Assembly (NCBI RefSeq): GCF_902143375.2
Contig: NZ_CABFVA020000065.1
Span: 1-64,000 of the forward strand
Length of the DNA stretch: 64,000 nt
Origin: Methylacidimicrobium tartarophylax
GTDB lineage: Bacteria > Verrucomicrobiota > Verrucomicrobiia > Methylacidiphilales > Methylacidiphilaceae
Direction of reading: 5' to 3'
Positions within the stretch are counted from its first letter, which is position 1, and every line of letters begins with the position of its first letter. Shown here one piece after another: positions 2,218 to 18,999 of the stretch. A program made the translations under genes and the position numbers. Below the pieces are notes generated by a model, which saw only the letters and a list, made by a program, of their open reading frames with translations, searched no databases and was not told the origin of the DNA.

Positions 2218-2289
2218 GCCGCTTTAGCTCAGAGGTAGAGCAACGCTTTCGTAAAGCGTGGGTCAAGGGTTCGAATCCCTTAAGCGGCT
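2218..2289 (+). tRNA. tRNA-Thr (anticodon CGT)
   Basis: Cloverleaf read by eye. Acceptor GCCGCTT pairs with AAGCGGC, the D-arm is GCTC/GAGC, the anticodon stem is ACGCT/AGCGT around loop TTCGTAA (anticodon CGT), and the T-arm is AAGGG-TTCGAAT-CCCTT. The discriminator is T. CCA is not encoded. A compositionally different accessory region begins right after its 3' end, a common integration position. Confidence 0.96.
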
Positions 2290-2444
2290 CCCAGATTCAA
2301 AGCGACTTACGGAAATAAATTCCTCTGGGTAGCGCAGCGTAACTCGCCTTATCACGCCATGCCTGCACCTTTCTTACGCTCTCCCGTAATCTCTATTCGT
2401 ACCGCTTAAGTCCATACGCAAACCGTATGCACGGCCAGGGGTAA

Positions 2445-2612
2445 GAACGGCACGGAACGCGAGAGAGAGAGCTTGGTGGATGCAAGCCTGACCTCTCGAC
2501 TTGGACCGTCACCGGCGACTGGCCAGAGCACGTGCCCGTCACCGACGCGGAGGTTGAGGTATTCGAGCAATGCTCCGATGACCTGTTCGATGAGCTGTTT
2601 GGGCAGTGCTGA
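2445..2612 (+). pseudogene. Gene fragment, C-terminal end of an unrecognised acidic protein
   Basis: An open stretch with no usable start codon ends at a TGA at 2610-2612. It reads as convincing protein near its end (TGDWPEHVPVTDAEVEVFEQ then CSDDLFDELFGQC), with acidic and aromatic spacing unlike a random reading. The preceding in-frame stop at 2442 leaves no room for a full gene. I do not recognise the family. It sits between tRNA-Thr and the Mrr-like gene and is best read as debris of a gene cut during integration or deletion. The remaining bases between 2290 and 2666 show no intact gene. Confidence 0.4.
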
Positions 2613-2666
2613 TAATTTGAGAGCGCGCCTGGCGCGCGATGGGAGTATCTTTGATGCAGGGGTGGC

Positions 2667-3584
2667 ATGAGCGGAATACCTGATTACCAATCCCTGATGC
2701 TTCCGCTACTTGAAGTCGTCGCCAAGGGCGAGACCTCTGTTCCACTCGCTGAAGCCGACATCTCGGCCCGATTTGGGCTGAGCCAAGCTGAACGCGAGGA
2801 GCTTTTGCCGAGTGGCAAGCAGCGCGTCCTGCACAACCGTTTGCACTGGGCGCAATTCTATCTAACTAAGGCCGGTTTCCTTGAGAGCCCACGCCGAGGC
2901 CGGTTTGTTTTAACCGTAACCGGACGAAAACTTCTTTCGAACCCGCCAGCGCGGCTTGATAAGCAGTTCCTGCTTACCGTCCCGGCTTTCCGTGAATTCT
3001 ACCACAACAATCAAGCAAAAGAAGCCACGGAAATAACGCTGCCGACTGCTCAGCCCACCTCAACACCAGATGAGGTCGTTGAAGCGGCTTACAGGGCGAC
3101 TCAAGCCGCACTTCGAGCTGAGCTTCTTGATCGTATTCTTCAAAACAGCCCTACATTTTTCGAGAGCCTTATTGTCGATCTATTGGTTGCGATGGGCTAC
3201 GGCGGATCACGTCGCAATGTGACGACACAGCTTGGCAGGAGCGGCGACGGTGGGGTCGACGGTGTTGTCAACGAGGACCTGCTCGGTCTTGATCGCGTCT
3301 ATGTCCAGGCCAAACGCTACGGACAAGGTTCGTCCGTCGGGCGGCCAGAGGTGCAGGCGTTCGTAGGAAGCTTGGTAGGTCTTGGCGCCAGCAAGGGGGT
3401 GTTCGTGACAACATCGACGTTCTCGGCCCAAGCGGTAGAGTTTGCTTCCCACATACCTCAACGTGTGATCCTGATCGACGGGAGACGGTTGACCGAGCTA
3501 ATGATCGAGCACTCTGTGGGCGTTCGATCGAATCGTGTGATCGAATTTAAGCGACTCGATGAAGACTTCTTCAGCGAGGAATGA
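2667..3584 (+). CDS. mrr: Mrr-type restriction endonuclease
   Basis: Predicted type IV-like restriction enzyme that would cleave modified DNA. Of 305 residues, about 1-100 form an Mrr_N winged-helix region (ISARFGLSQAEREELLPSGK; RLHWAQFYLTKAGFLESPRRG). Residues ~150-275 form the Mrr_cat PD-(D/E)xK nuclease: FFESLIVDLLVAMGYGG, the acidic GRSGDGGVDGVV motif, then the VYVQAKRY catalytic QxK motif and a GVFVTTSTFSAQA strand-helix. Length matches Escherichia coli Mrr (~304). The key Asp and Lys are present, so the gene looks intact. It has no accompanying methylase and its codon use is less GC-rich than its neighbours. Together with the adjacent recombinase fragment and tRNA-Thr, this suggests horizontal acquisition. 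Confidence 0.93.
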   Translation: MSGIPDYQSLMLPLLEVVAKGETSVPLAEADISARFGLSQAEREELLPSGKQRVLHNRLHWAQFYLTKAGFLESPRRGRFVLTVTGRKLLSNPPARLDKQFLLTVPAFREFYHNNQAKEATEITLPTAQPTSTPDEVVEAAYRATQAALRAELLDRILQNSPTFFESLIVDLLVAMGYGGSRRNVTTQLGRSGDGGVDGVVNEDLLGLDRVYVQAKRYGQGSSVGRPEVQAFVGSLVGLGASKGVFVTTSTFSAQAVEFASHIPQRVILIDGRRLTELMIEHSVGVRSNRVIEFKRLDEDFFSEE

Positions 3585-3591
3585 GCAAGCG

Positions 3592-3939
3592 ATGACCACG
3601 CCCTTGCGCGCCGCCCTTTACTTGCCCGTCTCGCTAGCGCGGCAGGCCGAGCACGATGTCTCTATCCGAGACCAGAAGCGCCAGGGCAAAACCTATTGCG
3701 CCTCGTGCGGCTACGAGCTGGTTGAAACTTATGTGGAGCCGGGGGCGGCGGCGACCAACGACCGTCGCCCCGAGTTTCAGCGCATGATCGATGCGGGCAC
3801 GTCGAAGCCCGCTTCCTTCGACGTGGTGATCGTCCACTCATTCAGCCGGTTCTTGCGCGAGCAAGCCAAGGCCAACGCCGAGCGCGCCCAGGGCATGCTT
3901 CAGCAGTCAAGCCGCCAAGCAGTCTGCTGCAGATGTTGA
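3592..3939 (+). pseudogene. Truncated serine recombinase (resolvase N-terminal domain)
   Basis: 115 residues matching only the resolvase catalytic domain: ALYLPVSLARQ with the expected active-site Ser, SIRDQKRQGKTYCASCGYEL, PEFQRMIDAG and FDVVIVHSFSRFLRE. A large serine recombinase should continue with a Recombinase domain and zinc ribbon for another 300-400 residues. Here the frame breaks off in an unrelated Cys-rich tail (QAVCCRC) and stops. The usual Y-x-R-V-S motif reads YLPVS, so the conserved Arg is replaced by Pro, a further sign of decay. An in-frame start at 3559 overlaps the end of mrr, but ATG 3592 fits the domain start. It is probably the relic of the enzyme that inserted the island. 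Confidence 0.85.
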
Positions 3940-4010
3940 CGCAAGTCCGCCAGGCCCGCGCGCCAGCCGATCTTCCCCTCCACCCACTCCGCACAGCGAA
4001 GAGCCGTTTT

Positions 4011-4808
4011 TTATTGGTGGAAGAACTCTCCGGGAGTGGGAGCGGCCAGGGCCTCTCCCGGCGCTCCGGTTAGAATCTCCAAGGAGGCGTCCTCGTCGCT
4101 GATGGCGTAGGTGGCCCAGGGAGGTTGAGCTTCGAAAGTCCAGGCTACGTCATAGACGCCAGGTTCGAGCTCGACGGTCGCCCCGAAAGTCTCCTCTCCG
4201 CTGCTCGGCAAGCCCACCTGACCGACGCTCCGGTCGAGAATCCGGTTGCCGTTTACGCGCAACGAGAATGACACCACGAATGTCCGGTTCCAGCGGCAGC
4301 GGGCACCGATGCTTGACCGACCAGCCTGCCGGACCGCCCATTTCGCCGACCCTGCAACGGCGGGCATGGCTCCGGCTCCTCTTACGGAGCGCCCGATGGC
4401 TCTGAGATCGAATCGAGGACCCGGCATCGGCCGGAGAGCGAGCGCGGCGGGATCCACCACCCAGGGCGCGTAAGGAGCGGGAGTAAGGGGGTCCTGCTGC
4501 TGTTGGTGGTATGCGCGGACTTCGATCATCCAGCCCGCCTGCCGTGCCGGTTGTCTCGCTTGCATCGGAGTAGAGGCTTGCGGCGTCGCGGAGGATTGGG
4601 ACGCCTGGAGTGGCACGAGCGCGCTCCGGGCCGCGGTGGCGTGTGCGCCGCCCGGATACTGCCGGAGGTAAATCTGGAGTTGGGAGACGGCTCCCTGGGA
4701 GGCCGATTGCCACAAGGCCGCCTCCTGGGGATCCTCCGCCTGGGCGGCCGACGGACACACGGTGATTATGGCGGCGGCGCATAAGAGCATTGTTTTAACG
4801 GCGTGCAT
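4011..4808 (-). CDS. Secreted protein with YLxxYPxG helical-repeat segment, last gene of the AAA+ operon
   Basis: 265 residues. The signal peptide occupies 1-24 (hydrophobic LLCAAAIITVC then a AQA/ED cleavage-like site). Residues ~27-65 (EAALWQSASQGAVSQLQIYL then RQYPGGAHATAAR) match the W-x-x-a...YLxxYPxGxxA pattern found in periplasmic TPR-like modules. A Pro/Gln-rich linker follows, then a C-terminal half of probable beta-strands (WNRTFVVSFSLRVNGNRIL; GATVELEPGVYDVAWTFEA) reminiscent of a ligand-binding or PA14-like sandwich, although I cannot assign a family. It begins 9 bp after the preceding membrane-protein gene and is probably co-transcribed with the AAA+ ATPase. Periplasmic or surface location is inferred. 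Confidence 0.7.
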   Translation of the reverse strand: MHAVKTMLLCAAAIITVCPSAAQAEDPQEAALWQSASQGAVSQLQIYLRQYPGGAHATAARSALVPLQASQSSATPQASTPMQARQPARQAGWMIEVRAYHQQQQDPLTPAPYAPWVVDPAALALRPMPGPRFDLRAIGRSVRGAGAMPAVAGSAKWAVRQAGRSSIGARCRWNRTFVVSFSLRVNGNRILDRSVGQVGLPSSGEETFGATVELEPGVYDVAWTFEAQPPWATYAISDEDASLEILTGAPGEALAAPTPGEFFHQ

Positions 4809-4817
4809 TTCGGTGAT

Positions 4818-5108
4818 TTAGTCGAAAGGCGAATGGTAGCCCCGATCCTCCTTTGGCACGCTCGGCGGCAGTGGCTGCTCCGGGCGGATCTTGATCGACT
4901 TGGCAGGAGGCGCGGGTGCGGGTGGCGTGGAGGCCTGCGAGCCGACCGTCGGCGAGGTGGAAGTCCCTACGTGGACCGGGTGGTGCGTCGATGCGAGGGC
5001 GACTCCGACGAGGACCGGAAACGCCAGGATCGCCAAACGGTACAGTCCGTCGGCGGCCCAGGCGGCGCGATGAAGGCCGAGCAGCCATTGCATGATACCT
5101 TGGTTCAT
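4818..5108 (-). CDS. Small single-pass membrane protein with Pro-rich extracytoplasmic tail
   Basis: 96 residues from MNQGIMQWLL. One transmembrane helix lies at about residues 21-41 (LYRLAILAFPVLVGVALAS). It is followed by a Thr/Pro-rich tail (STPPAPAPPAKSIKIRPEQP) that would project into the periplasm. The chosen ATG overlaps the TGA of the upstream 88-residue gene (ATGA at 5105-5108), a translational-coupling junction repeated at the other junctions of this operon. An ORF extending to 5207 adds only residues that overlap the neighbour. No family is recognised. The TonB/TolA-like anchor plus Pro-rich tail suggests a scaffold or linker role, which is inference. Confidence 0.65.
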   Translation of the reverse strand: MNQGIMQWLLGLHRAAWAADGLYRLAILAFPVLVGVALASTHHPVHVGTSTSPTVGSQASTPPAPAPPAKSIKIRPEQPLPPSVPKEDRGYHSPFD

Positions 5109-5371
5109 GTGGCGATCTCCTCGAGGTCCTGGATCCGTTCGACATAGGTCCTCCTTGGCGACAAGTCTCCTGGCGAAGGCGTCGCTGGTCGAATGTCGCT
5201 CATCCACGGCGGAAGATGTACCGCAGGATTGAAGGGCGAATCCGATAACGGGAAAAGCAGGTTGCCCAGGCCATATCCAGAGGGAGAACAGAGAGCGACA
5301 AACAGCATGAGCCAGGATTGTTGCGCAATGTTGCGGCGACGGTCGTCCAAATGTTTCCGTGCTTTCGTCAT
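5105..5371 (-). CDS. Small membrane protein of the AAA+ operon
   Basis: 88 residues. A basic N-terminus (TKARKHLDDRRRN) precedes a hydrophobic segment at about 18-42 (SWLMLFVALCSPSGYGLGNL), then a Pro-rich part and an acidic C-terminus (YVERIQDLEEIAT). Positive-inside logic puts the N-terminus in the cytoplasm, next to the ATPase. Its ATG overlaps the stop codon of the AAA+ gene (ATGA at 5368-5371) and its own stop overlaps the next start, so the genes are almost certainly translated together. No homologous family is recognised. Confidence 0.65.
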   Translation of the reverse strand: MTKARKHLDDRRRNIAQQSWLMLFVALCSPSGYGLGNLLFPLSDSPFNPAVHLPPWMSDIRPATPSPGDLSPRRTYVERIQDLEEIAT

Positions 5372-6483
5372 ATTTCGAGCGCTTCCTGGATATCGCTGTC
5401 GGTGACGGCTTGCAGGTCGCCTGAGGGATCGTTGGCGAGGCGGACGGCCTGCGCCTCGCGGATTCTCTCGACGAGGGTGCGGACTTCTCTGGCGTTCCCG
5501 AAGCCGGGATCGCGCGACCTTGACGTTAGCCAGTTTAGGATCATGGAGTCCATCCGAGCCTGGTCGCCGACGAAGCGTAGCTGCTCCTTCTTAAGCATCC
5601 TCTTGAGAATCTCCAGGAGCTCGTCGGCCGTGTAGGCCGGAAAGGGGATCGTCTTCGGGAACCGGGACGCTAAGCCCGGATTGGACGAAAGGAACTGACC
5701 TATCTGGGCGGGATAGCCAGCCACGATCACGACCAGCCGTTCCCGATAGTCCTCCATCGCCTTGAGAAGGGTGTCGATCGCCTCCTGGCCGAAGTCTCCC
5801 TGAACGGCCCTTCCCGCTGCCAGCGTGTAGGCCTCGTCGATGAAGAGGATCCCGCCCATCGCTTCGTTGATCCGGTCCTTGGTCTTCTGGGCGGTCTGGC
5901 CGATATACTCGGCGACCAGACCGCTCCGGTCGGTCTCGATCACGTGGCCGCGAGGCAAGACCCCGAGATCCCGGTAGATCGCTCCGAGGGTCCGGGCGAC
6001 GACCGTCTTGCCGACGCCGGGCGGTCCGGTGAAGACCATGTGCCTACTCACGGGCGAGACCGAGAGGCCGCTGGCCCGCCGGCGCTGCTCGACCTGGGCG
6101 CTCGCCATGATCTTGTTGAGCTCCCGTTTCACCGCCGCCAGGCCGACCATTCTGTCGAGCTCATCCAGCGCGCCTTGGGCGCTCAAACTGGATCCGACCG
6201 GATCCACGCGTAGTGGCCGGAATGTCGATCGCGGCCTGGGCGAGGGCGGAGGCTGGTAGGCGGGAGGCGTTCCCGGGTCCTGCGGATCCACGGAGGCCTC
6301 CGGGATCGGGTTGATCCTGGACTGGATGGTCGCCAGCCGCCAAGCGATCACCCCGACATCGCCGAGGAGCAAATACCAGACGAGATTCTGATCGACCGCG
6401 GAGATAACCGACCCGACCGCCGTAAGAACGAGCAGCCACAGGAAGACGGAGACCTTGCGCCGCTTTACGAGGTTTTGGATCAT
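5368..6483 (-). CDS. Membrane-anchored CbbX/SpoVK-type AAA+ ATPase
   Basis: 371 residues from MIQNLVKRRK. Two transmembrane helices lie at about 12-30 and 33-50, then a Pro-rich linker (60-90) and one AAA+ module. Visible motifs are Walker A GPPGVGKT (153-160), a pore-loop-like AEYIGQTAQKT (191-201), Walker B GGILFIDEAYT (210-220), the candidate arginine finger in LASRFP (271-276) and sensor 2 GNAREVRTL (329-337). This is the CbbX/SpoVK/EccA class of hexameric remodelling ATPase, so all catalytic parts are present. CbbX itself is soluble and linked to Rubisco; the membrane anchor and gene neighbours here differ. A longer ORF begins upstream at 6732, but ATG 6483 overlaps the stop of a small upstream ORF, as at the other junctions. 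Target and function are unknown. Confidence 0.85.
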   Translation of the reverse strand: MIQNLVKRRKVSVFLWLLVLTAVGSVISAVDQNLVWYLLLGDVGVIAWRLATIQSRINPIPEASVDPQDPGTPPAYQPPPSPRPRSTFRPLRVDPVGSSLSAQGALDELDRMVGLAAVKRELNKIMASAQVEQRRRASGLSVSPVSRHMVFTGPPGVGKTVVARTLGAIYRDLGVLPRGHVIETDRSGLVAEYIGQTAQKTKDRINEAMGGILFIDEAYTLAAGRAVQGDFGQEAIDTLLKAMEDYRERLVVIVAGYPAQIGQFLSSNPGLASRFPKTIPFPAYTADELLEILKRMLKKEQLRFVGDQARMDSMILNWLTSRSRDPGFGNAREVRTLVERIREAQAVRLANDPSGDLQAVTDSDIQEALEI

Positions 6484-6572
6484 CCGGTCTCTTTGGGCAC
6501 GAATGGTTCGTTCGCCTGTTCCATCTCCATGTCGTGCAGTCGGAACGAATGATGCGCCGATTCGGGCCGCAT
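6480..6572 (-). CDS. Possible 30-residue leader ORF of the AAA+ operon
   Basis: ATG at 6572 opens a 30-codon ORF (MRPESAHHSFRLHDMEMEQA then NEPFVPKETG). Its TGA at 6480-6482 overlaps the ATG of the AAA+ gene in the same ATGA arrangement seen at 5368 and 5105. A GGGGAG element lies upstream with a slightly long spacing. The frame stays open further upstream to a TTG at 6749. The repeated junction style is the only argument that it is translated; no homology is recognised. Confidence 0.35.
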   Translation of the reverse strand: MRPESAHHSFRLHDMEMEQANEPFVPKETG

Positions 6573-6781
6573 CAAGATGAGGCGCTCCCCACGCGTCCGA
6601 CCAATGGAAGCGGTTTTTAGACTGATATTTTGGGTGTCTTTTTTCCCTACTTTGAGGCGAGAAGAGCTGGAAGTACCAGCCGTTGCCAGTCTCCTCCCGG
6701 CTCGTTCTTGGGGTGTCTTTGCATAACTCCAAGGGTGTCCGAGAATCAAGCCCCTGATACAGTCGGCTCCCTAATGGAGAA

Positions 6782-6850
6782 TCAGAAGTAGTCGTCTACG
6801 CCCTCCTGGGCCTCGGGCAGGTTGCCGTAGTCCCGTAGGTAAATCGCCAT
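6782..6850 (-). pseudogene. Remnant of an IS3-family transposase (OrfB C-terminal region)
   Basis: A 22-codon piece reads MAIYLRDYGNLPEAQEGVDD then YF and a stop. It resembles the segment of IS3-family integrase-core proteins just before the RFYNxxRPHQ motif (typically YLRDY...EA..G...Y). The RPHQ part is missing and there is no intact upstream reading frame. It is debris, not a functional element. No terminal inverted repeats could be identified nearby. Confidence 0.45.
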
Positions 6851-7455
6851 TCCCCCCAAAGGATGCAGAACTCTTGTGCTGACTTATTGCTCGTAATACG
6901 AGACCACGCAGCGGGCAGGTGATTACGGGGCTCAACGAGAAGGGCGGAAAAGACAAAGCCGCGACTTCGATTGGAGCGCCGAGCAGAGCACCAAGCTCAG
7001 GGTCAATGCCGCCACGCTGAGGAAAGACCGTCAAGGAGTTGCTGCCGGATTTCGTCGAGCAAGCAACCGCGCAATACGGAGCGCAAATGGTGCATGGGGA
7101 GGAAGAGTGGCTTGCTTTCCCTGGTGCATGAGCCATGCTCAGGCGTTCGGAAAGCAGGGCGAGGTTGCAAGCGCGTTGGGGTTTCCTTTACGGTTGCGTT
7201 GAATCCCGTAACTGCCGCGAAAACCCATGTCGCCGCAGAAGTCGTGGAGGATGAGACGAGTCGGAAGGACTTCGTTTCCGCTGGTCGATCTCGGTTGCGA
7301 CGGGGTCGTCGGGAAGGAAAAGAAGACGCTGACGATGGTTCTCCTGCAGTCAAGAGCTGGCAGAGAGCGAGGGGGAAAGAAGGCCTTTTTGGGCCGCTCA
7401 GCGCAAAAGAGAACCTGTGCATCGAAATCCCGGAGTCGAGTCGGGTAGGAAGCAG
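6851..7455. other. Gene-poor region with degraded coding remnants
   Basis: About 600 bases without an intact gene between the IS remnant and nadK. On the + strand, 7021-7131 reads as a coding-like fragment without a start (KTVKELLPDFVEQATAQYGA, then QMVHGEEEWLAFPGA and a stop) that I cannot assign. Other long frames here lack protein-like composition. Presumably the nadK promoter lies toward the 3' end. The stretch closes the accessory region that starts at tRNA-Thr. Confidence 0.4.
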
Positions 7456-8355
7456 ATGCTGCGGATCGGTGTAATCGCCAATACGAGGAAGCCGGGTGCT
7501 CGGACCCTGGTCCGGGAGATGCAGCTCTTTTCCGCAAAGCATGGGTTCTCCTTTGTTTGGGAAGAGCAGACCGCGAGACTGGCGGGGACAGAGGGTAGGG
7601 ATCTGGCCGGCTTGGTGGGCGAAGTCGATCTCCTGATCGTGGCGGGAGGGGACGGTTCCCTGCTGCGCGTCGTGCATGAGGTGTATCCGAATCCGGTGCC
7701 GATCCTCGGTGTCAACATTGGCGGCTTGGGATTTCTGACGGCAGTGACTCGGGAGGAAATTCTCCAAGCGTTGCCGGATTTGGCTTCCGGCCGATTGCGC
7801 CACAGTCCACGACTGGCGCTGGAAGTGCGAGGATCGCTCCGGGGCAAGGAGATCCGAATTCCCTCCGTGCTCAACGATGTGGTCTTGTTTCGGGGGAGTT
7901 CTTCCCGGATGGCTCGGATCGATGTTCATGCGGGGGATTTCCTCGTCACGGAGTTTCAAGCCGACGGCGTCGTGGTGGCAACCCCTACAGGGTCGACCGC
8001 CTATGCGCTTTCGGCGGGCGGGCCGATCGTTGTTCCCGAGGCTCAAGTCTTTACGCTGACCCCTCTTTGCCCTCATACTCTGACGAATCGCAGCCTCGTC
8101 TTTTCCGCGGACTCCCATGTCCGGATGACGGTGCCGGAACGAGCGGCTCCGGTCCGATTGGAGTTCGACGGCGAGTCGAGCGGGATTTTGCACTGCGGCG
8201 ACTGGATCGAGATCCGTGCCGCCGCGCACCAGGTGACGCTGGCGTTTCTTGCCGGTCGAGACTTCTTTCAAATTCTGCGGCAGAAGCTTCGTTGGAGCGG
8301 AGCAAGCATGCCGACATCGGAAAAGCGAAGCGAGGCGGACGGAGGACGAACGTGA
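7456..8355 (+). CDS. nadK: NAD kinase
   Basis: ATP-dependent phosphorylation of NAD to NADP. Of 299 residues from MLRIGVIANT, the diagnostic GGDG motif is at 64-67 (LLIVAGGDGSLLR), followed by LGVNIGGLGFLT, the LNDVVLFRG segment and the NAD-binding TPTGSTAYALSAGGP. Start ATG 7456 is preceded by GTAGGAAG at suitable spacing; an in-frame upstream start at 7417 adds 13 residues unlike the family. The stop overlaps the GTG start of the next gene (GTGA), so the two are coupled. Confidence 0.95.
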   Translation: MLRIGVIANTRKPGARTLVREMQLFSAKHGFSFVWEEQTARLAGTEGRDLAGLVGEVDLLIVAGGDGSLLRVVHEVYPNPVPILGVNIGGLGFLTAVTREEILQALPDLASGRLRHSPRLALEVRGSLRGKEIRIPSVLNDVVLFRGSSSRMARIDVHAGDFLVTEFQADGVVVATPTGSTAYALSAGGPIVVPEAQVFTLTPLCPHTLTNRSLVFSADSHVRMTVPERAAPVRLEFDGESSGILHCGDWIEIRAAAHQVTLAFLAGRDFFQILRQKLRWSGASMPTSEKRSEADGGRT

Positions 8356-8810
8356 AGCTAGGCGAATTGATCAAGCCCGAAAGAGTCTCTCTGAATCTGC
8401 GCGCTCGAACCTGGGCCGAGGCCAACCGGGAGGTTGCCGAGCTTTTGCGCGAAGCACCGGAAATCGCTGACTTTCCCGCCTTTCTCGAAGAGCTGCTCCT
8501 CGTCCAGGGCAGCGGACAGTTCTGGTTCGATGGCGAAGTGGGGTTTCCTCACGTGAGGAGCGCTCATGTGAACAGTCTCGTCCTTGCGGCGGGAAGAAGC
8601 AGGGAGGGAATCGTCGCCCAGGAGGGTCAGCCTCCGGTGAAGCTCGTTTTCCTCATCGGCGTGCCCAAACAGTTTCATACCGAATATCTGATTGCCGTGG
8701 GAGCTCTTGCTCGTATCGTCCAAGAGGCGCCTTCCCGAGGGAAGCTTCTCCACGTAAAGGACGCAGCCGAATTTGTCTCCCTGATTGCGGCCGCAGAGCA
8801 GAAAGTGTAA
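8352..8810 (+). CDS. PTS IIA-like (PtsN/fructose type) domain protein
   Basis: 152 residues beginning with GTG 8352, which overlaps the nadK stop. It fits a phosphotransferase EIIA type-2 domain: an N-terminal LxExIxPERVSLNL strand-helix, then VGFPHVRSAHVNSL around residues 63-76, where H67 aligns with the phosphorylatable histidine of the PHxR motif. Further along are GIVAQEGQPPVKLVFLIGVP and QFHTEYLIAVGALARIVQEA, which match the core beta strand and helix of the family. As a single domain it is more likely regulatory (PtsN-like) than a sugar transporter subunit; no transporter genes are adjacent. Pairing with NAD kinase is unusual. Confidence 0.8.
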   Translation: MKLGELIKPERVSLNLRARTWAEANREVAELLREAPEIADFPAFLEELLLVQGSGQFWFDGEVGFPHVRSAHVNSLVLAAGRSREGIVAQEGQPPVKLVFLIGVPKQFHTEYLIAVGALARIVQEAPSRGKLLHVKDAAEFVSLIAAAEQKV

Positions 8811-8826
8811 ATAAACGGAGACCTTC

Positions 8827-8913
8827 GGACAGGTGGCTGAGCGGTTGAAGGCACTCGACTCGAAATCGAGCGTGGGGGAAACTCCACCGTGGGTTCAAAT
8901 CCCACCCTGTCCG
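8827..8913 (+). tRNA. tRNA-Ser (anticodon CGA)
   Basis: Acceptor GGACAGG/CCTGTCC, anticodon stem CTCGA/TCGAG around loop CTCGAAA (anticodon CGA), a long class II variable arm (GTGGGGGAAACTCCACC) and T-arm GTGGG-TTCAAAT-CCCAC, discriminator G. CCA is not encoded. The long variable arm confirms a serine-type tRNA. It begins 17 bp after the PTS-like gene. Confidence 0.96.
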
Positions 8914-8958
8914 CACTCCCGACGCTCCGTCTCTGCCTCCCACCGAGGCACCGGAAGA

Positions 8959-10365
8959 TCACGTTCCCGGACGGACTGCTTTCCGAAGCGGGTCCGGCTG
9001 ACTTGTGCGTTCGGCGGCATTCGGCTTGCGGGCGTTTTTCGTGCGAGGCGTTCCTGAGTCGGAAAGCTCCTGGGAGAGTTCAAAATCGCCGATGCGGAAG
9101 GCGAAGGAGCGAGGGCTGATGCAATGCAGGATGATCTGCTTTCCTGCGCGCGTGAGATCGAAGGGAACAAGCCTGGATTGCCTTTCGAAATGGAAGAGAG
9201 GGAGCTGTCGCAGACCCTCCAGAGTTCGCTGCAGCTCTGCCGCCGCTTCCGGTCGGGTCTGAACGTAAAGGCAGACGACCGTGTTCGTCCGGTGGGGCGG
9301 CCAGGCAGTCCATTCCACGACGATCCCCGGGACGGGGAAGCGCACGGCAACGGCTGCGCGCGGAATGAAGTCGCCCGAGACCAAATAGACCGTGTCTCCC
9401 GTCCAAGAGCGGATCATTGCGGGAAGAAGGGCCGAGTCGTTTTGCCGGCTTAAGCGGCGAAGAGTCTCCTCGGACCAGGCGAGCTCTTTCTCTTCTCCGA
9501 GGAGAGGAAGACGCCAGCCGCTGGGGATGAGGGTTGCCAAGCGTACCTGCTCGGTACGGACGCAGGAGGAAAAGAGCTCGCTCGACGGGCCGTCCGGAGA
9601 GCCCATCCGATATTTTAGGATGAGGACACCGGAGAGGAGGCCTGTCCCCGCGGCGGCAAGAAGGAGCAGGACGTCGATTGGCCCGAAACGCGAGCGCGAG
9701 GCCGTCTGGGATCGGCTACCCCCTTCGAGGGGGGGTGCCGCGGGCCCTAGGCTAGACGATGGCTGCGGGAGCTTTTGCTCTTCTCTCGGCCAAAGAGGAA
9801 ACGGGGAGAAGAGCTTTGCCCTTTTCTCGGAATCCGGTGGCGAAGCATCCGTGGCGACGGATCGGAACGGCTGCGCCTCGAGCGGGAGAAGGGGGCCAGA
9901 GAGCCTCCGGAAGATCCAGAGCAGCGGGGCAGCAAGGACGAAGTAGAGGCAGAGGGTCCGGGAGATCCGCAAGCTGGCTAGGCCCAACGTCAGAGCCAAG
10001 GAGGGTTGGACCACGAGCCAGAACATCCGCGGAGAATTTCGGAAGGGCCAGGGTGGAATGCCCAGACTCCATGGGTTTTGGGGAATCTCTTGGGGCCCGC
10101 GGCTTCCGGCCTGGATCCGGTGAAGTGCGTAGGCGACTCCGGCCAAACCGGCAAAGAGAAAGACGGGAAAGGCCTCCCGCCAAGATTGGCGGAGGGCCGT
10201 TCCCAGGGTCAGGGCAAGGAGCAGGATGAGGGAGAAGAGTGCCCGCCGACTGCCGGCGTATCGCTCGCCGAGTTTCCGGCAAGTCAAAAGCTCGATCGGG
10301 AAGATCCACGAAACCATGATCCAGAAAAGCCCTCGGCCGATCCAGGCCATGATCGTATGGATCAT
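8959..10365 (-). CDS. Large membrane protein of unknown function
   Basis: 468 residues with an ATG start. The N-terminal third is hydrophobic: helices near 5-28, 42-58, 66-82 and a long apolar stretch at ~115-155. A hydrophilic Pro/Ser-rich linker (~165-225) follows, then another helix (~230-252, VLLLLAAAGTGLLSGVLILK) and a C-terminal soluble domain of about 200 residues with alternating strands (DTVYLVSGDFIPRAAVAVRF; TNTVVCLYVQTRPEAAAELQ). I do not recognise the family. It is convergent with tRNA-Ser and lies downstream of two MFS genes on the same strand, 97 bp after the nearer one. Confidence 0.7.
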   Translation of the reverse strand: MIHTIMAWIGRGLFWIMVSWIFPIELLTCRKLGERYAGSRRALFSLILLLALTLGTALRQSWREAFPVFLFAGLAGVAYALHRIQAGSRGPQEIPQNPWSLGIPPWPFRNSPRMFWLVVQPSLALTLGLASLRISRTLCLYFVLAAPLLWIFRRLSGPLLPLEAQPFRSVATDASPPDSEKRAKLFSPFPLWPREEQKLPQPSSSLGPAAPPLEGGSRSQTASRSRFGPIDVLLLLAAAGTGLLSGVLILKYRMGSPDGPSSELFSSCVRTEQVRLATLIPSGWRLPLLGEEKELAWSEETLRRLSRQNDSALLPAMIRSWTGDTVYLVSGDFIPRAAVAVRFPVPGIVVEWTAWPPHRTNTVVCLYVQTRPEAAAELQRTLEGLRQLPLFHFERQSRLVPFDLTRAGKQIILHCISPRSFAFRIGDFELSQELSDSGTPRTKNARKPNAAERTSQPDPLRKAVRPGT

Positions 10366-10462
10366 CGGAATCTTTCCCGCTGCATCCCTTGTGCGACTTC
10401 CGACCGACGGCGAACGGGACGAGGAGTCCTCGGCGCCAGGGAATGGAGTCGACGGACGTTTC

Positions 10463-11752
10463 CTACTCTATCCGTTGCGGGAGCAATTTCGGCAAGGCGG
10501 AAAGCAGACCGAGGCTTACGGCAAAAAAGACGAACGCAGCGAGCATGGGCGTATGGAAAGAATGGAGGCTCTGCGAAAGAAGGCCGAAGAGAAGGGGGCC
10601 CGATCCGGCGGCGACGCGGCCGAAAAGTCCCCACAATCCAAAGTATTCGGCATGCTCATTCTTGGGAGCCAGAATCCCCACCACGGCGCGGCTCACCGCG
10701 TGGAGGGAGCCGGCCCCCATTCCCAGGACAGCGCAGACCGCGTAAAACGCCAGCTTCTCCTGCACGAAGTAAAAGCCGCCCATCCCCAAGAACCAGATCG
10801 AGACAATCAGCTGCAAGGTCTTCTTGGATCCGAGCCAATCTTCGATGAAGCCGAAGAGGATGGCACCGAGGCAGCCCCCGGTCTGAATGGCCAGAAGGAG
10901 GAAGACCGGCTCCCGGCCGGCCAATCCGATCTGCATTTGTCCATACAGAGCGCCCATGGCCAGCACCATCGATGCTCCGGTGCTGTACAGGAGGAACGCA
11001 CTGAAGAAGAGGCGGAGGCGAGGCTCGTCGCGCAGCTTGGAAAAGGTGTGGGAAAGACGACCGAGAGAGCTTTCCATGGCGCCTTTCCAATCCTGCTGGG
11101 TGGGATGGCCCCGTTCTCGCACGAAAAGAAGCGTCGGAAGGCCGCCCGCGCCGTAAATGGCGGCTGTCAGGAGAAAAATCAGCCGAATGGCGCCGGAGTT
11201 GGCAAGCGTGAATCCGGGGCTCATGAGCGGATAGATCGCAGCCACGCTCAAGAAGCCTCCGACATTGCCGAGCGCCCTCGCCAGTCCCGAAAGCCTCCCG
11301 ATCTCCTGCGACGAAGCGAGTTCGGGAAGAAAGCTCGCGGTGAGATTTTCGGCAAACGCGTAGCCGATCGATGCTGCCATGAACGCCGCCAGGCTCATCC
11401 AGACATCCCCTTCGCCCATGGCGGCAAGGCTGGCGGTGGCGACGATGCAGACGATGTACGAGATCGAGAGGATCCGTTTCTTTTTTCCGGTAACATCGAC
11501 GAGAGCGCCGAGAAGGGGAGAGAGGACCCCGACCAGGGTCTGGCAAAAGAACAGGGCGCAACCAAAGAGCCATGTTGCGTCGGTTCGGTGCGCACAAATG
11601 ATGCGAAGGAAGTAGGTGCCGAACACCAGATCAACGATCAGCGTGTTGAAGGCGGTATTCGCGAAATCGAAGAACGACCAAGCGATCTTTTCACTTTTTC
11701 TAGGAGACGTCGGGTGCGGTTGGGGAGAGAGGACCTTCTCGGAAAGAGGCAT
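10463..11752 (-). CDS. MFS transporter, UMF1/Atg22-like family (copy A)
   Basis: 429 residues with about 12 transmembrane segments. The N-terminal WSFFDFANTAFNTLIVD is the hallmark of UMF1-type MFS proteins. The cytoplasmic loop LVDVTGKKKR after helix 2-3 fits the MFS motif (D-x-x-G-R/K-R/K) and its counterpart lies in the second half (IEDWLGSKKT). Substrate unknown; members of this family have been linked to amino-acid or peptide export. It shares motif order with the next MFS gene (12013-13386), indicating a tandem duplication. Confidence 0.85.
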   Translation of the reverse strand: MPLSEKVLSPQPHPTSPRKSEKIAWSFFDFANTAFNTLIVDLVFGTYFLRIICAHRTDATWLFGCALFFCQTLVGVLSPLLGALVDVTGKKKRILSISYIVCIVATASLAAMGEGDVWMSLAAFMAASIGYAFAENLTASFLPELASSQEIGRLSGLARALGNVGGFLSVAAIYPLMSPGFTLANSGAIRLIFLLTAAIYGAGGLPTLLFVRERGHPTQQDWKGAMESSLGRLSHTFSKLRDEPRLRLFFSAFLLYSTGASMVLAMGALYGQMQIGLAGREPVFLLLAIQTGGCLGAILFGFIEDWLGSKKTLQLIVSIWFLGMGGFYFVQEKLAFYAVCAVLGMGAGSLHAVSRAVVGILAPKNEHAEYFGLWGLFGRVAAGSGPLLFGLLSQSLHSFHTPMLAAFVFFAVSLGLLSALPKLLPQRIE

Positions 11753-12012
11753 GGAGGATTATTTCAGGCAGAGACGCGATGGATCCGAGAGCCGTCTGCA
11801 GCCGTTTTTCGAAGAGAGGAGACCGCCCTTTGAGGGGATGACCCGAAGGCGGTGGAAAGGGGCGCTTCGATCAGCGATCCGTGGTTGGAAGGCCGAGATT
11901 TCAGGAAAGAGAGACGATCCGGAAAAAGCGGGTTCGTCATGGATGGATATGCCTCGGTGCTTCCCAGACAGTAGAAGCCATCCCCAGAGCTAACCGCGAT
12001 CCGCGCACCCTG

Positions 12013-13386
12013 TCAAGGCAGCGCGGGTGGGCGGGAAGCGGCTCTCGGTCTGCCATCCGGCGGCAGCGCCAGCAGGAACAAAAAGCCGAGCGCGAAGCAG
12101 ACCAAGGGGATGACCATGGGAATTTGATAGGAGTGGGTTACTTGGAAGAGCTCGCCGAAGAGCAGCGGCCCGATCGCGGCCGCGACCCTTCCTGTGACGA
12201 ACCAGAGTCCGTAGTATTGCGCCCGCGATTCGGAAGGAGAGAGGAGCCCCATGACGGCACGGCTGACCGAGAAAAGGGAACCGTTGCCAAATCCAACGAG
12301 GAAGGCCGTTGCCCAGAAGAGCGGTTTCGAGTGAACGCACACCAGAGCGATCGAGGCGATCGTCCAGACGAGCACGACCAGTTGCAGGGCGCGGGCGGAC
12401 CCAAGCCAATCCTTGATTTTGCCGAGAAAAAGAGCTCCGAAGCACGCTCCGCCCTGGACAGCGAGCAGGACCAAGACCTGTTCGGTATCCGCCATCCCGA
12501 TCGCCATCTGGGCGTAGATCGCGACCACAACCATCACGACGGTTGCCCCGGCCCCGCAGAGAAGTGAAGAGAGAAAAAAGGTCCGCAATGCGCCGGGGCG
12601 TACTACGTCCGGCACCGAGTCTCCCAAGCGTCGAGCAGCATGTCGACAAGCCTGCCAAAGATTGCCCGTGAGGGCTTCGGTTCGTTCCCGCAAGAGAAAA
12701 AGAGCGGGAAGTCCCGCCAGGGCGTAGATGGCGATCGTCAGGGCCAAGGCGAGCTGGATGCGGTTTGCGTTGGAGACGGTGAATCCCGAGGCAAGCAGAG
12801 GAGAAACCAACAGCAGGTTGGCCAAGCTCCCCAAGTTTCCCAAAGAACGGGCCCAGCCGGAGAGGCGGCCGAGGGAATCGAAGCTGGTGATCTCCGGCAA
12901 AAAGCCGGCCATAAGATTGTCCGCAAACGAGAACGAAATATTGGTGATGGCAAAGGCGATCAGGCTTGGCCAGACATCTCCTTCCCCCATGCGCGCCAAG
13001 CTCAAGGCGGAGAGGATGCAGACGGCATAGGCGAAGAAGAGCATTCGCTTTTTTCTGCCCAGGACATCCGCCATCGCACCGATCATCGGGGAAGAGAAGG
13101 CGACAACCAGCTGGGAGACGAAGAGAACCAGGGTCCACAGCCAGGTGCCATCGACTCGATGGGCGCAAATGACGCGAACGAAATAGAGGGCGAACACCAG
13201 ATCGACGATGACGGTCGTGAAGGACGAGCTGCCAATGTCAAAGCAGCTCCAGGCGAGTCGCTCCCAGTTCCCTGCCGGCGGTGAACCGGCGGAACTGCTC
13301 GGTGGAGAAGAAGGATCTCCTTCCGAAGGGGATGAAGTCTTGCCGGGGATCGGTTGTGGACGGCGGACTTTGAGCCAGCTCACCAT
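12013..13386 (-). CDS. MFS transporter, UMF1/Atg22-like family (copy B)
   Basis: 457 residues, about 12 transmembrane helices, paralogous to the gene at 10463-11752. Matching segments include AWSCFDIGSSSFTTVIVD versus AWSFFDFANTAFNTLIVD, MADVLGRKKRMLFFAYAVCI versus the VDVTGKKKR loop, and IKDWLGSARALQL versus IEDWLGSKKTLQL. Copy B has a longer Pro/Ser-rich N-terminus (~40 residues) and has lost the D-F-A-N motif (now DIGSS), which suggests changed specificity. The 260-bp spacer between the copies contains no recognisable gene, so each may be transcribed separately. Confidence 0.85.
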   Translation of the reverse strand: MVSWLKVRRPQPIPGKTSSPSEGDPSSPPSSSAGSPPAGNWERLAWSCFDIGSSSFTTVIVDLVFALYFVRVICAHRVDGTWLWTLVLFVSQLVVAFSSPMIGAMADVLGRKKRMLFFAYAVCILSALSLARMGEGDVWPSLIAFAITNISFSFADNLMAGFLPEITSFDSLGRLSGWARSLGNLGSLANLLLVSPLLASGFTVSNANRIQLALALTIAIYALAGLPALFLLRERTEALTGNLWQACRHAARRLGDSVPDVVRPGALRTFFLSSLLCGAGATVVMVVVAIYAQMAIGMADTEQVLVLLAVQGGACFGALFLGKIKDWLGSARALQLVVLVWTIASIALVCVHSKPLFWATAFLVGFGNGSLFSVSRAVMGLLSPSESRAQYYGLWFVTGRVAAAIGPLLFGELFQVTHSYQIPMVIPLVCFALGFLFLLALPPDGRPRAASRPPALP

Positions 13387-13467
13387 GAGGCGAAGGATAC
13401 CATAGCACGCTGGCGACCCGGGAGATGCCGAGAAAAGCAGGGCCAGGACGAGATCAGGCGATCACCG

Positions 13468-15879
13468 TTACTGCCAACTTTGGAGAACGACCTTGCGCGA
13501 TGCCGGATAGGGATACTTCCGAAGAAGCTCTTTCACCGGCAATTTCTCGTCTCCTTCCCGCATGTAATGCAGGAGAACGACCGAGGCCCAGTAGTCATTG
13601 GCATAGTCCGTCCCGGCTAACAAGGTGGGAACCCCCTTCTGGTTGACCGTATGACAGGCGACGCAGCTGACGGGCCCCGCATAGCGGCCGTCCGGAGAAT
13701 ACTGCAAGGCGGCCTGATGGGTGGTCAAATCGACCGTTTTGGCTTCTCCTTCGTAGCGGACCGGATAGAGACCGTGAATCGATTCATGGCAGGACTGGCA
13801 GGAGAGCGCGCCATGGGCTTTCGAGTAGCGGTAGAGCGCGTATTTGTTGGGCTGGTCGATAGGAAAGTATTTGCCACCTTTGCTTTCCACGAATGGCGCG
13901 GCGTGGCAGGTCGCACATTTGGGCTCGGAAGCGGAAAGCCACCAATCGCTTCCCCCGGAAGCGCTGTCGTAGGAAACCGGGCTCCCTTCGCTCGCATTCC
14001 ACGGCAATAATTTCAGGTTGCCTTCCTTATCCTTCGATGCGTGGACGAGCGTCGCGCCCTTGTGATCGGCGTAATAGGTGTAGACCGGGTTGTTCCCGTT
14101 CTGGATCCTCGGGTCGGCCATTTCCAGAAAACGCTGGATCTCCCCGCCGGCGACCGCTTTCCGGATCTCCTCCACGCCCTTGTCTCTCAAGGTCTTGCCC
14201 TTTTGAGAGACCACGTCGTCGAGATCATCCCACTTGTAGAGTTCGTTCGAAAGCTGATTGTGGCAGTTGGTGCAGGTCAGGCCCCTCATCTGCGGGATGG
14301 GCTTGCCGTTTTCATCCCGCTTGCTGACATTTTCCAGGTACCAGTTGCCCAGAGAATTGAGGAAAAAGGGAGGCTGAACATCCGGGTTGGTATGGGCATC
14401 TCTTCTGAGATAGCAACCGCCTCCGGCGATTCGTTGATCGGAGTCCGCAAATTTGTTGTTTCCGTAGGAGTCGGTGATTTGAAACGGGTTGGTCTCGAAA
14501 TCGTTCATCTTGGGATTCTGCCAGTGAGTGGGATGGCATGCCTGGCAGGAGACCGTTCTGCCCGCCTTGTCGTTCATGTCGGCCAGAAAGCTCGCGTGTG
14601 CCGCGTGGATCGACGACGCAAGCGGCTTTGCCTTCGTGGTGGGATAGCCCGTTGCTCCCGGCCTCGGTTCTTGCAGATTGCCGGAGACATTGTCGCCGTG
14701 GCAGTCGGCACAGTTGACCGACCCGACGCTGCCTAGTCGGTTGGACGAGGCGTTCGGGTTGTATTCTTTGAGAAATTGCGTCTGGAACATCTTGTCGTGG
14801 ATCTCGAGAAGGTTGATGGAAGAGGACGAGAGCCTCGCCATGTAGTCGGATTCATCCGGATAGTTCTTTTTCCAGTAGTCGTATTCCTTCTCGAAGAGGG
14901 TCATGCCGGCTTCCTTGGCGAGCTTGGCCCCCTTGCCGTTCGCGGAATGGCAGATCACGCAGTTCGGAATATCGACAGGATTCGTGCCGATGAACTGGAC
15001 GGGCTTCCCGTTTGCGAGGATCGGCTTACCTTCTTTGTCGTGCAACTGCACGGTCGAGTACTGGTAGGGCTGGAAGTCCTTGTTGGTTACCGTCCGGATC
15101 GTTCCCTTCCTCCGGGAATCATAGAATGCGGTCAAGGGAAGGCCCAACGCGTCCCACACATTCGCCGCCGTTAACGTCAACCGGACATTCTTTACGTCCG
15201 GGATCAGCGAATCGGTGAAGACGATGTCTCCGCCTTGGTCTCCGGCATAATCGAGATATCCTCCCGCGAGCGGCTTCCCCGAGGGGCCGGCATCCACGGG
15301 GATCTCGAGGTCTTTGCCGATGTGGATCCTCTTCTCGATCGACCAGTCCTTGGGAATCGTGCCTTCGAGATCCTTGTAGATGAAAACATGCTCCCAGACG
15401 TAGTTCGCCATGTTGTCCCCGGGGTCGGACATGGTTCCGTTGCCGTTCACGTCCTTGAGGACCGACCAGTACTTCATCTTATTCCCTTCGGAATAGGTGT
15501 TATCCCGCAAGAAATAGTAGAGCTTGACCTGATCCGCCGGAGACAAGAGCCTCGGCCGGTTGCCATTCCTGCCGGACTGGACGGCCTGCGCCTGGAAGGA
15601 ATTGTAGGGCGGAATGACACAGCAGTAGGAGATGTCGAATCCCACGCAGTGCATCCCGAGTTCGTAGTTGATGAGGATATTGTAGGGATTTTTCGGCTGA
15701 TATGCCTTGAGAGTGAGGTGCGTGACCTCGTCCTTGATCGCGACGGGCTCTAGCCGATCGAGACGGAAAGGCGGATTGGGGTCGTAGCTCGCGATCTCGG
15801 CTCTCGCCGGAAGAGGGAGGCCGGAGGCAAGCAGAGCCAGCGCTACGCAGAGAAGCATTCGTCCGTTCGGTGAGGTCAT
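13468..15879 (-). CDS. Secreted heptaheme c-type cytochrome
   Basis: 803 residues. The signal peptide is about 1-28 (LLCVALALLASGLPLPARA). Seven CxxCH heme-binding motifs are visible in order: CVICH, CADCH, CQACH, CTNCH, CATCH, CQSCH and CVACH. Early in the protein is an ELGMHCVGFD...PPYNSFQAQ signature that I know from large uncharacterised multiheme proteins of environmental bacteria (often as GMHCMN...PPYN). The protein should fold in the periplasm or at the surface and carry electrons; the partner is unknown. An EF-hand-like DVNGNGTMSDPGD loop suggests a calcium site. The adjacent upstream gene on the same strand encodes a secreted TPR protein. Confidence 0.9.
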   Translation of the reverse strand: MTSPNGRMLLCVALALLASGLPLPARAEIASYDPNPPFRLDRLEPVAIKDEVTHLTLKAYQPKNPYNILINYELGMHCVGFDISYCCVIPPYNSFQAQAVQSGRNGNRPRLLSPADQVKLYYFLRDNTYSEGNKMKYWSVLKDVNGNGTMSDPGDNMANYVWEHVFIYKDLEGTIPKDWSIEKRIHIGKDLEIPVDAGPSGKPLAGGYLDYAGDQGGDIVFTDSLIPDVKNVRLTLTAANVWDALGLPLTAFYDSRRKGTIRTVTNKDFQPYQYSTVQLHDKEGKPILANGKPVQFIGTNPVDIPNCVICHSANGKGAKLAKEAGMTLFEKEYDYWKKNYPDESDYMARLSSSSINLLEIHDKMFQTQFLKEYNPNASSNRLGSVGSVNCADCHGDNVSGNLQEPRPGATGYPTTKAKPLASSIHAAHASFLADMNDKAGRTVSCQACHPTHWQNPKMNDFETNPFQITDSYGNNKFADSDQRIAGGGCYLRRDAHTNPDVQPPFFLNSLGNWYLENVSKRDENGKPIPQMRGLTCTNCHNQLSNELYKWDDLDDVVSQKGKTLRDKGVEEIRKAVAGGEIQRFLEMADPRIQNGNNPVYTYYADHKGATLVHASKDKEGNLKLLPWNASEGSPVSYDSASGGSDWWLSASEPKCATCHAAPFVESKGGKYFPIDQPNKYALYRYSKAHGALSCQSCHESIHGLYPVRYEGEAKTVDLTTHQAALQYSPDGRYAGPVSCVACHTVNQKGVPTLLAGTDYANDYWASVVLLHYMREGDEKLPVKELLRKYPYPASRKVVLQSWQ

Positions 15880-15904
15880 AGCGAACGGCCCCTAACACGG
15901 GGAC

Positions 15905-15931
15905 GCAATTCCTGCTTTAAGCAGGAATTGC
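15905..15931. terminator. Perfect 11-bp inverted repeat between TPR and cytochrome genes
   Basis: GCAATTCCTGC, a 5-base loop (TTTAA), then GCAGGAATTGC: an 11-bp perfect stem. It sits in the 68-bp gap between the stop of the secreted TPR gene and the start of the heptaheme cytochrome gene, both minus strand. There is no clear U-run on the minus strand, so it could be an attenuating terminator, an mRNA-stabilising hairpin or an operator. Confidence 0.5.
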
Positions 15932-15947
15932 ATTGTTATGTCAAGCG

Positions 15948-17945: not shown

Positions 17946-18167
17946 TTGGGACCGGATATTGTCTTTGGGACGCGTAAAAAGTCAATAAGCTTTCTTAAGA
18001 GCTTGTTTGCAGGTGACTAATGTGGAGCGGCCTAGCGTCGCGCTCTCGGCAGCCCTTTCTCTCTCACGAACGTCTTGCCCGGCATGGAGCCAGTGGGCAT
18101 ACTGCGCAAGCGGAAGTAGAGGGTAGTGAGCAGGATGGCAGATCTGGGAGCCGGACGGACGAAAAAC

Positions 18168-18983
18168 ATGCAGGATCGATTGGAGCAGATTCTCCATCGA
18201 AAAAGAGCCGAGGTCCGGGAACTCGACGGCGAGCTTGTTCGGTTGCGGCAGGAAGCGCGCGGCCTGGGCCGTCGCTCACGCTCCTTGGTCGTCGCGCTAA
18301 AAAAGCGGGAACGGATTGCCCTCATCGCGGAGGTCAAGCGGGCTTCCCCTTCGGCGGGGGCCATCGCGCCCGGCTGCGATCCCGTAAAACAGGCGCTCCT
18401 CTATGTCGATGCTGGGGCGGACGGGATCAGCGTGCTCACCGACGGACCTTTTTTTTCCGGATCGGGCGAAGATCTACGCCAAATTCGGGAAGCGGTCGAT
18501 CTCCCGATCCTGCGCAAGGACTTCATCCTCTCGGAAGCGCAGCTGTACCAGAGCGTCATTTTGGGTGCGGATGCCGTGCTGTTGATCGTGGCGGCTTTGG
18601 CGAAGGAGAGGCTTTACGAGTTGCATTCCCTCGCGATCGACCTCGATCTGGCGCCTCTGGTCGAAGTGCATAACCGAGCCGAACTCGAGCGAGCCTTGGC
18701 GATCGACGCGAAGCTGATCGGGATCAACAATCGCGATCTTCGCACCTTTTCGATTGATCTGGCGACCACCGAGCAGCTGATCGGCTCGATCCCGGAAGGG
18801 TGTGTGGTCGTGAGCGAAAGCGGGATCGTCTCCGGGAGGCAAGCGGCTGATCTCCGGTCCGTGGGCGTCGACGCGATTCTTGTCGGCCAAGCTTTGATGC
18901 AGTCGCCCAATCCGAAGGAAAAGGTGGCCGAGTTCTACAGAGAAGGCGGGACGAAGGGGGGATGGCGGCCGCTGGGCGGGTAG
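18168..18983 (+). CDS. trpC: Indole-3-glycerol phosphate synthase
   Basis: Fourth step of tryptophan synthesis, a TIM barrel closing the indole ring of CdRP. From MQDRLEQILHRKRAEV the protein has 271 residues. Family motifs are IAEVKRASPSAG (catalytic Lys, phosphate-gripping SPS), LTDGPFFSGS, LPILRKDFILSEAQLYQS (catalytic Lys), LVEVHNRAELERAL, IGINNRDLRTF and VVSESGI. Earlier in-frame starts (GTG 18126, ATG 18135) would add up to 14 non-conserved residues. It is divergent from the secreted TPR gene; the ~220-bp spacer should hold both promoters. trpF follows 16 bp downstream. Confidence 0.95.
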   Translation: MQDRLEQILHRKRAEVRELDGELVRLRQEARGLGRRSRSLVVALKKRERIALIAEVKRASPSAGAIAPGCDPVKQALLYVDAGADGISVLTDGPFFSGSGEDLRQIREAVDLPILRKDFILSEAQLYQSVILGADAVLLIVAALAKERLYELHSLAIDLDLAPLVEVHNRAELERALAIDAKLIGINNRDLRTFSIDLATTEQLIGSIPEGCVVVSESGIVSGRQAADLRSVGVDAILVGQALMQSPNPKEKVAEFYREGGTKGGWRPLGG

Positions 18984-18999
18984 CCCAAGCTTTCTTCGC

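Follow-up and report, generated by a model that had tools for sequence, protein, structure and literature searches.

Introduction

AAA+ ATPases of the CbbX class thread their substrates through a hexameric pore. In CbbX itself, the pore-loop residue Y114 is needed for activase function (PMC5437159). Relaxases must unfold to pass the channel of a conjugative type IV secretion system (T4SS), and the unfoldase has been stated to be unclear (PMC5826034). Here we describe a four-gene operon in a stretch of 64,000 nucleotides from Methylacidimicrobium tartarophylax (Verrucomicrobiota; contig NZ_CABFVA020000065.1, positions 1 to 64,000; hereafter the window), which encodes a membrane-anchored AAA+ ATPase of the CbbX/SpoVK/EccA superfamily, two small membrane proteins and a secreted protein. 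According to sequence comparison with plasmids, this operon very probably represents the surviving 3′ part of the type IV coupling protein (T4CP) operon of a conjugative or mobilisable element, and we favor, if by no great measure, the view that the ATPase and its partners form a putative T4CP-linked membrane remodelling module of DNA transfer. No description of a T4CP-linked membrane AAA+ operon was found in the open-access papers searched.

Results and discussion

A coupling protein gene or its remnant heads the operon

The operon runs on the minus strand from position 6483 to 4011 in the order AAA+ ATPase, 88-residue, 96-residue and 265-residue protein. Both the ATPase gene and the 88-residue gene overlap their downstream neighbour by ATGA, and the last two genes are spaced by 9 bp. 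A preliminary description made from the DNA letters alone had proposed exactly this layout plus a possible fifth gene, and the latter turned out to be the C-terminal remnant of a T4CP gene of the TrwB/TraD type, whose stop overlaps the ATPase start in a further ATGA. In a tblastn search of the whole window with the T4CP of Acidiphilium cryptum plasmid pACRY04, residues 572–601 matched positions 6578–6489 with 57% identity (E = 8.7e-5). This stub, ending at 6480 on the ATG of the ATPase gene, was the sole confident match. Its local score was 82, while 1000 shuffles gave 48 at most.

On pACRY04, the end of the TrwB/TraD-type T4CP gene overlaps the N-terminal piece of an AAA+ gene, which carries the transmembrane (TM) hairpin. 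The C-terminal piece follows 12.6 kb downstream and is succeeded by a 108-residue homologue of the 96-residue protein and a homologue of the 265-residue protein. A Tn3-family element parts the two halves; it has inverted ends (GGCCATAGCATCGGTT) and is bordered by a TATAT duplication of 5 bp. This insertion probably inactivates the module on this plasmid. The transposon itself occupies 6503–19086 of the pACRY04 sequence (L045).

The two conjugative Mesorhizobium plasmids MesoLjLa3 and pWSM4875 show the same arrangement: traD and traG are followed by genes for the membrane AAA+, a Pro-rich single-pass protein and a secreted protein, with the AAA+ gene starting about 10 bp past traG and the later genes overlapping by ATGA. 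The coupling proteins belong to two families, the TraG/VirD4 type (PF02534) in Mesorhizobium and PF10412 in Acidiphilium, so that simple co-inheritance with one T4CP is unlikely. Apart from a Methylobacterium locus discussed below, a T4CP gene or its remnant lies directly upstream, in the same operon, in all four loci. An origin of the window genes as part of a T4CP operon is thus very probable, and the earlier idea of a free-standing, island-borne system had to be abandoned: the genes make up the 3′ section of a conjugation operon in which the T4CP is now a stub.

The ATPase is distinct from CbbX, SpoVK and EccA

The ATPase matched the Pfam domains AAA and AAA_lid_6 and contains a Walker A motif (GPPGVGKT, residue 153), a pore loop (EYIGQ, 192), a Walker B motif (ILFIDEA, 212), an Arg-finger motif (NPGLASRF, 268) and a sensor 2 motif (GNAREVRT, 329). 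Pore-loop residue Y193 aligned to Y114 of CbbX. Two N-terminal hydrophobic segments begin at residue 12 (mean Kyte–Doolittle hydropathy (KD) 2.25) and residue 35 (mean KD 1.46), well in agreement with the two TM helices foreseen in the preliminary description. The best-scoring NCBIfam model was SpoVK (TIGR02881, 279.5 bits, cut-off 423), besides EccA (TIGR03922, 252.4 bits over the AAA+ half only, cut-off 467) and CbbX (TIGR02880, 230.6 bits, cut-off 459). None of these curated cut-offs was reached and no Rubisco or ESX genes adjoin the operon, as anticipated from the letters alone. A true CbbX was ruled out by cut-off, clade and context. An EccA-type protein of a type VII system was likewise ruled out by the cut-off, by operon partners without Pfam or NCBIfam match and by the lack of ESX neighbours.

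Phylogenetic trees of 100 and 123 AAA+ domains placed the ATPases of the window, Acidiphilium, Mesorhizobium and Methylobacterium in one clade with a Shimodaira–Hasegawa-like approximate likelihood ratio support (SH-aLRT) of 98, although the first tree also had a single viral sequence on a long branch within it. The clade stood apart from viral AAA+ proteins, from a CbbX-like protein that the host encodes separately beside transketolase (contig C97), and from a second clade, made up of chromosomal AAA+ proteins with a TM hairpin. According to a survey of the window's phylum, members of this second clade occur there without the partner genes, indicating that a membrane anchor is no distinguishing mark by itself. 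In this phylum, chromosomes often encode double-AAA+ proteins of the CbbX/SpoVK class with a TM hairpin, which form a clade of their own and whose genes apparently stand alone (L176–L187, L192). Among viral contigs, none of 80 AAA+ relatives was accompanied by recognised partner genes, and the secreted protein had no relative there. Two plasmid loci were rejected as related modules: the CbbX-like AAA+ of Shewanella pSA70-3 lacks the TM hairpin, and so does the soluble SpoVK-like AAA+ of Marinibacterium pLA6_010 (L132:399–3629), which adjoins traG divergently and belongs to a different clade.

Partner proteins and the Methylobacterium relative

The 88-, 96- and 265-residue proteins had no Pfam or NCBIfam match. 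The 96-residue protein has one clear TM segment (mean KD 1.99) and the expected Pro-rich tail; the TM segment of the 88-residue protein is weaker (mean KD 1.41). The former is related to the Acidiphilium 108-residue protein (BLASTP 1e-11), and the window/Acidiphilium single-pass proteins are homologous to those of Mesorhizobium (hhalign E = 3.4e-6). A juxtamembrane signature, H-x-A-x-W-x-x-D-x-x-Y-R-L-A, is common to the N-termini from the window, Acidiphilium and Methylobacterium (0/1000 class-preserving shuffles in each direction). In Mesorhizobium it was borderline, with 2–3/1000 shuffles for the window/Acidiphilium model and 22/1000 for the Methylobacterium model. Of 72,556 plasmids, only pACRY04 encodes a clear relative of the 265-residue protein (39%, 3e-43). 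Identity to the Acidiphilium homologues followed the codon-position order 2 > 1 > 3 for the ATPase, 96-residue and 265-residue genes, supporting coding; on this sequence comparison, the codon patterns of all three shared genes are purifying. Coding support for the 88-residue gene consists of its double ATGA coupling. The latter gene was not found in the Acidiphilium or Mesorhizobium loci and is missing between the AAA+ and 108-residue genes in Acidiphilium. Co-occurrence of all four genes elsewhere had been named as a check. It held in the plasmid loci for the ATPase, 96-residue and 265-residue genes, the relationship of the latter being clear for Acidiphilium and weak for Mesorhizobium, and did not hold for the 88-residue gene.

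The secreted protein carries the predicted signal peptide and the helical module with YLxxYPxG; a Pro-rich linker and a β domain had been overlooked. In the structure model, a helical hairpin (residues 27–72) reached a predicted local distance difference test (pLDDT) score of ~80–90 and was followed by a disordered Pro-rich linker and a seven-stranded β domain (~150–247). Since the model was built from a single sequence and has a mean pLDDT of 51.6, the β domain is a hint only, and the same holds for the generic jelly-roll matches (lectin/CBM/C1q β-sandwich) returned by Foldseek. Such a fold would suit an entry-exclusion or mating-surface module, in which the ATPase installs the secreted and single-pass proteins and these in turn obstruct or modify contact with other cells. 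The operon's membrane and secreted partners and its linkage to a T4CP point in the same direction, and exclusion genes of the F plasmid lie beside traD. However, the fold matches come from a poor model and we know of no exclusion system that uses an AAA+ ATPase, and we consider this explanation highly unlikely.

A cluster on a megaplasmid of Methylobacterium bullatum (L142:17949–27118) encodes a 195-residue TM protein, a membrane AAA+, a TM double-AAA+ and three single-pass proteins, one of which carries a PG_binding_1 domain. The cluster is a candidate for an undescribed envelope machine. It raises the question whether the ATPases of this clade serve a general remodelling of envelope proteins, extracting, assembling or disassembling single-pass periplasmic proteins related to peptidoglycan or the surface, with mobile elements carrying the module as useful cargo. 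All three of its single-pass proteins bear the signature, no conjugation genes were recognised nearby, and TM-hairpin AAA+ genes are common on chromosomes of the window's phylum. Such a general role is at odds with the coupling protein gene or remnant directly upstream in every locus outside Methylobacterium, and we regard it as distinctly unlikely.

The operon lies in an insertion at tRNA-Thr

The features of the locus are collected in Table 1. Four relatives lack the DNA between tRNA-Thr and the right-hand flank, which places the operon within a 4,865-bp insertion: to the right of the tRNA, their sequence resumes almost directly at about window position 7157–7434, and the closest relative (G002) has 63 bp in place of positions 2292–7156. 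The operon was acquired by horizontal transfer. Neither a repeat search nor the junction sequence revealed a flanking att repeat that copies the 3′ end of the tRNA. The picture of an ATP-driven, membrane-spanning machine on acquired DNA is supported.

Table 1 Features of the tRNA-Thr insertion and its boundary in the window
Feature	Position	Strand	Basis
tRNA-Thr (cgt), left boundary of insertion	2218..2291	+	ARAGORN; homologous tRNA in relatives
4,865-bp insertion adjoining tRNA-Thr 3′ end	2292..7156		blastn of window vs four syntenic loci (L155–L158); junction sequence
Mrr-type (type IV) restriction endonuclease, cargo	2667..3584	+	Pfam Mrr_cat 1.2e-34, Mrr_N 7.4e-26; PADLOC mREase_IV 2.1e-96
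Serine-recombinase N-terminal fragment (relic)	3592..3939	+	Pfam Resolvase, residues 8–92 only, 1.4e-11
265-residue secreted protein: signal peptide, helical hairpin, Pro-rich linker, β domain, C-terminus GEFFHQ	4011..4808	-	Acidiphilium homologue; structure model
96-residue single-pass protein: signature HxAxWxxDxxYRLA before TM, Pro-rich tail, C-terminus GYHSPFD	4818..5108	-	Homologues; signature
88-residue probable single-pass membrane protein, no detected relatives	5105..5371	-	ATGA overlaps on either side; no Pfam/NCBIfam match
Membrane-anchored AAA+ ATPase, 371 residues, two N-terminal TM segments, CbbX/SpoVK/EccA superfamily	5368..6483	-	Pfam; NCBIfam; tree; hydropathy
C-terminal stub of T4CP (TrwB/TraD type), stop overlapping ATPase start (ATGA)	6480..~6578	-	tblastn

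An Mrr nuclease gene and a recombinase relic are present beside the operon, as first described. Together with the AAA+ protein and its membrane partners, the adjoining type IV restriction gene could indicate a defence island on which the operon protects against phages or plasmids, and PADLOC returned a weak similarity to the IetA ATPase (9.5e-9), as expected of any AAA+. However, none of the partner genes matched a PADLOC defence model, the similarity of the ATPase was generic (IetA, TRIP13), the conserved neighbour is the T4CP and not Mrr, and the Mrr gene lies on the opposite strand. The Mrr/resolvase arm (window 2483–3967) shares ~77% nucleotide similarity, in three pieces, with the Methylosinus trichosporium plasmid pOB3b3. 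This similarity suggests an alphaproteobacterial origin of the arm, separate from that of the operon, and the Mrr gene looks like separate cargo. Defence, which had been listed among the possible functions, thus gained no positive support and appears most improbable.

Further along the minus strand, the window contains two neighbouring paralogous MFS-type transporter genes (10463–13386; 429 and 457 residues) and a gene for an 803-residue secreted protein with many CxxCH-type motifs resembling a multihaem cytochrome (13468–15879).

Fate of the operon in its host

The host genome has pmoA, which together with the CbbX-like gene beside transketolase points to an acidophilic methanotroph, probably a verrucomicrobium of the Methylacidiphilaceae type, and speaks against Leptospirillum as the host. 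It contains no T4CP (PF10412, PF02534) and no VirB4 (PF03135), which leaves the window copy stranded, and no second copy of the 265-residue protein. Among 388 genomes of the phylum, the gene for this protein occurred in the window genome only, and elsewhere matches were weak and partial. Without a helper element, the window copy is unable to serve conjugation in the host, and it could function, if at all, solely in a changed role. The truncated T4CP gene, the missing T4CP and VirB4 genes and the isolated occurrence in the phylum would all fit a functionless remnant that decays after integration. All four reading frames are intact and the catalytic motifs of the ATPase are complete, which speaks against decay, although a recent arrival would explain intactness too. 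We consider this fate somewhat unlikely.

A putative membrane motor linked to coupling proteins

Several observations weigh against a transfer module. The T4CP-linked loci amount to three independent cases plus the window stub, Alphaproteobacteria having been sampled through plasmids only. Most conjugative plasmids have no AAA+ protein of the window clade, implying that it is not essential for conjugation. No VirB genes were found in the 34 kb of annotated pACRY04 sequence examined, and the Methylobacterium relative, lying away from any recognised conjugation genes or T4CP, suggests a possibly broader function in the envelope. A purely cytoplasmic unfoldase would need no secreted partner. Finally, the secreted proteins of Acidiphilium/window and Mesorhizobium agree in their architecture and in a GE[FL] motif at the C-terminus, yet their match is weak (BLASTP 0.004; hhalign 0.12) and homology is not secure. 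Taken together, a role of the module in transfer is about evenly poised.

The history and action of such a module could be pictured as follows. In intact elements, the ATPase would be held at the inner membrane beside the T4CP as a hexamer, and pore-loop residue Y193 would pull on or unfold a substrate in DNA transfer, be it a relaxosome component or the complex of the T4CP or of the adaptor. The single-pass protein (N-terminus inside, juxtamembrane signature) may act as the adaptor that connects the motor, via its Pro-rich tail, to the secreted β-domain protein in the periplasm. In the window genome, a fragment of such an operon was probably deposited beside tRNA-Thr, with the T4CP cut to its C-terminal stub. 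More specifically, the ATPase could be a membrane remodeller or unfoldase that is coupled to the T4CP and dedicated to conjugation, unfolding the relaxase or relaxosome or reshaping the T4CP complex, together with a cross-envelope adaptor and a periplasmic β-domain protein; in exactly this form, the proposal is unlikely.

A CbbX-class AAA+ anchored beside the coupling protein in three independent plasmid loci, with two T4CP families, is a candidate for an additional motor of certain systems that can be put to the test. If true, some type IV systems for DNA transfer would contain an ATP-driven component not described before, and substrate pulling of the CbbX/EccA type would be tied to DNA transfer. 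The window also provides an example of a conjugation operon fragment left in the genome of an acidophilic methanotroph.

Comparison with known systems

With CbbX, the window ATPase shares the AAA+ core (phmmer 1e-53 to 3syk/3zuh) and the pore-loop tyrosine, but it is membrane-anchored and no gene for Rubisco or the Calvin–Benson–Bassham cycle lies in the insertion. The likeness to EccA comprises the AAA+ core (phmmer 6e-53 to 9lur) and the general idea of an AAA+ protein serving a secretion machine. In contrast to EccA, the ATPase has no N-terminal TPR-type domain, its operon contains no ESX genes, and the transfer genes to which it is linked are of type IV instead of type VII. It differs from SpoVK in its two N-terminal TM segments and in the absence of a sporulation context. 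The Methylobacterium cluster resembles the window operon in AAA+ clade, TM hairpin and single-pass partners with the juxtamembrane signature; it differs in its additional double-AAA+ gene, larger periplasmic regions and PG_binding_1 domain, and no T4CP was recognised nearby. The standard T4CP operons (F, RP4, R388, Ti) contain, to our knowledge, no CbbX-class AAA+. What the window operon has in common with T4CP operons of the TraG/VirD4 and TrwB/TraD types is its head: in the four loci outside Methylobacterium, this place is taken by a T4CP gene or its stub.

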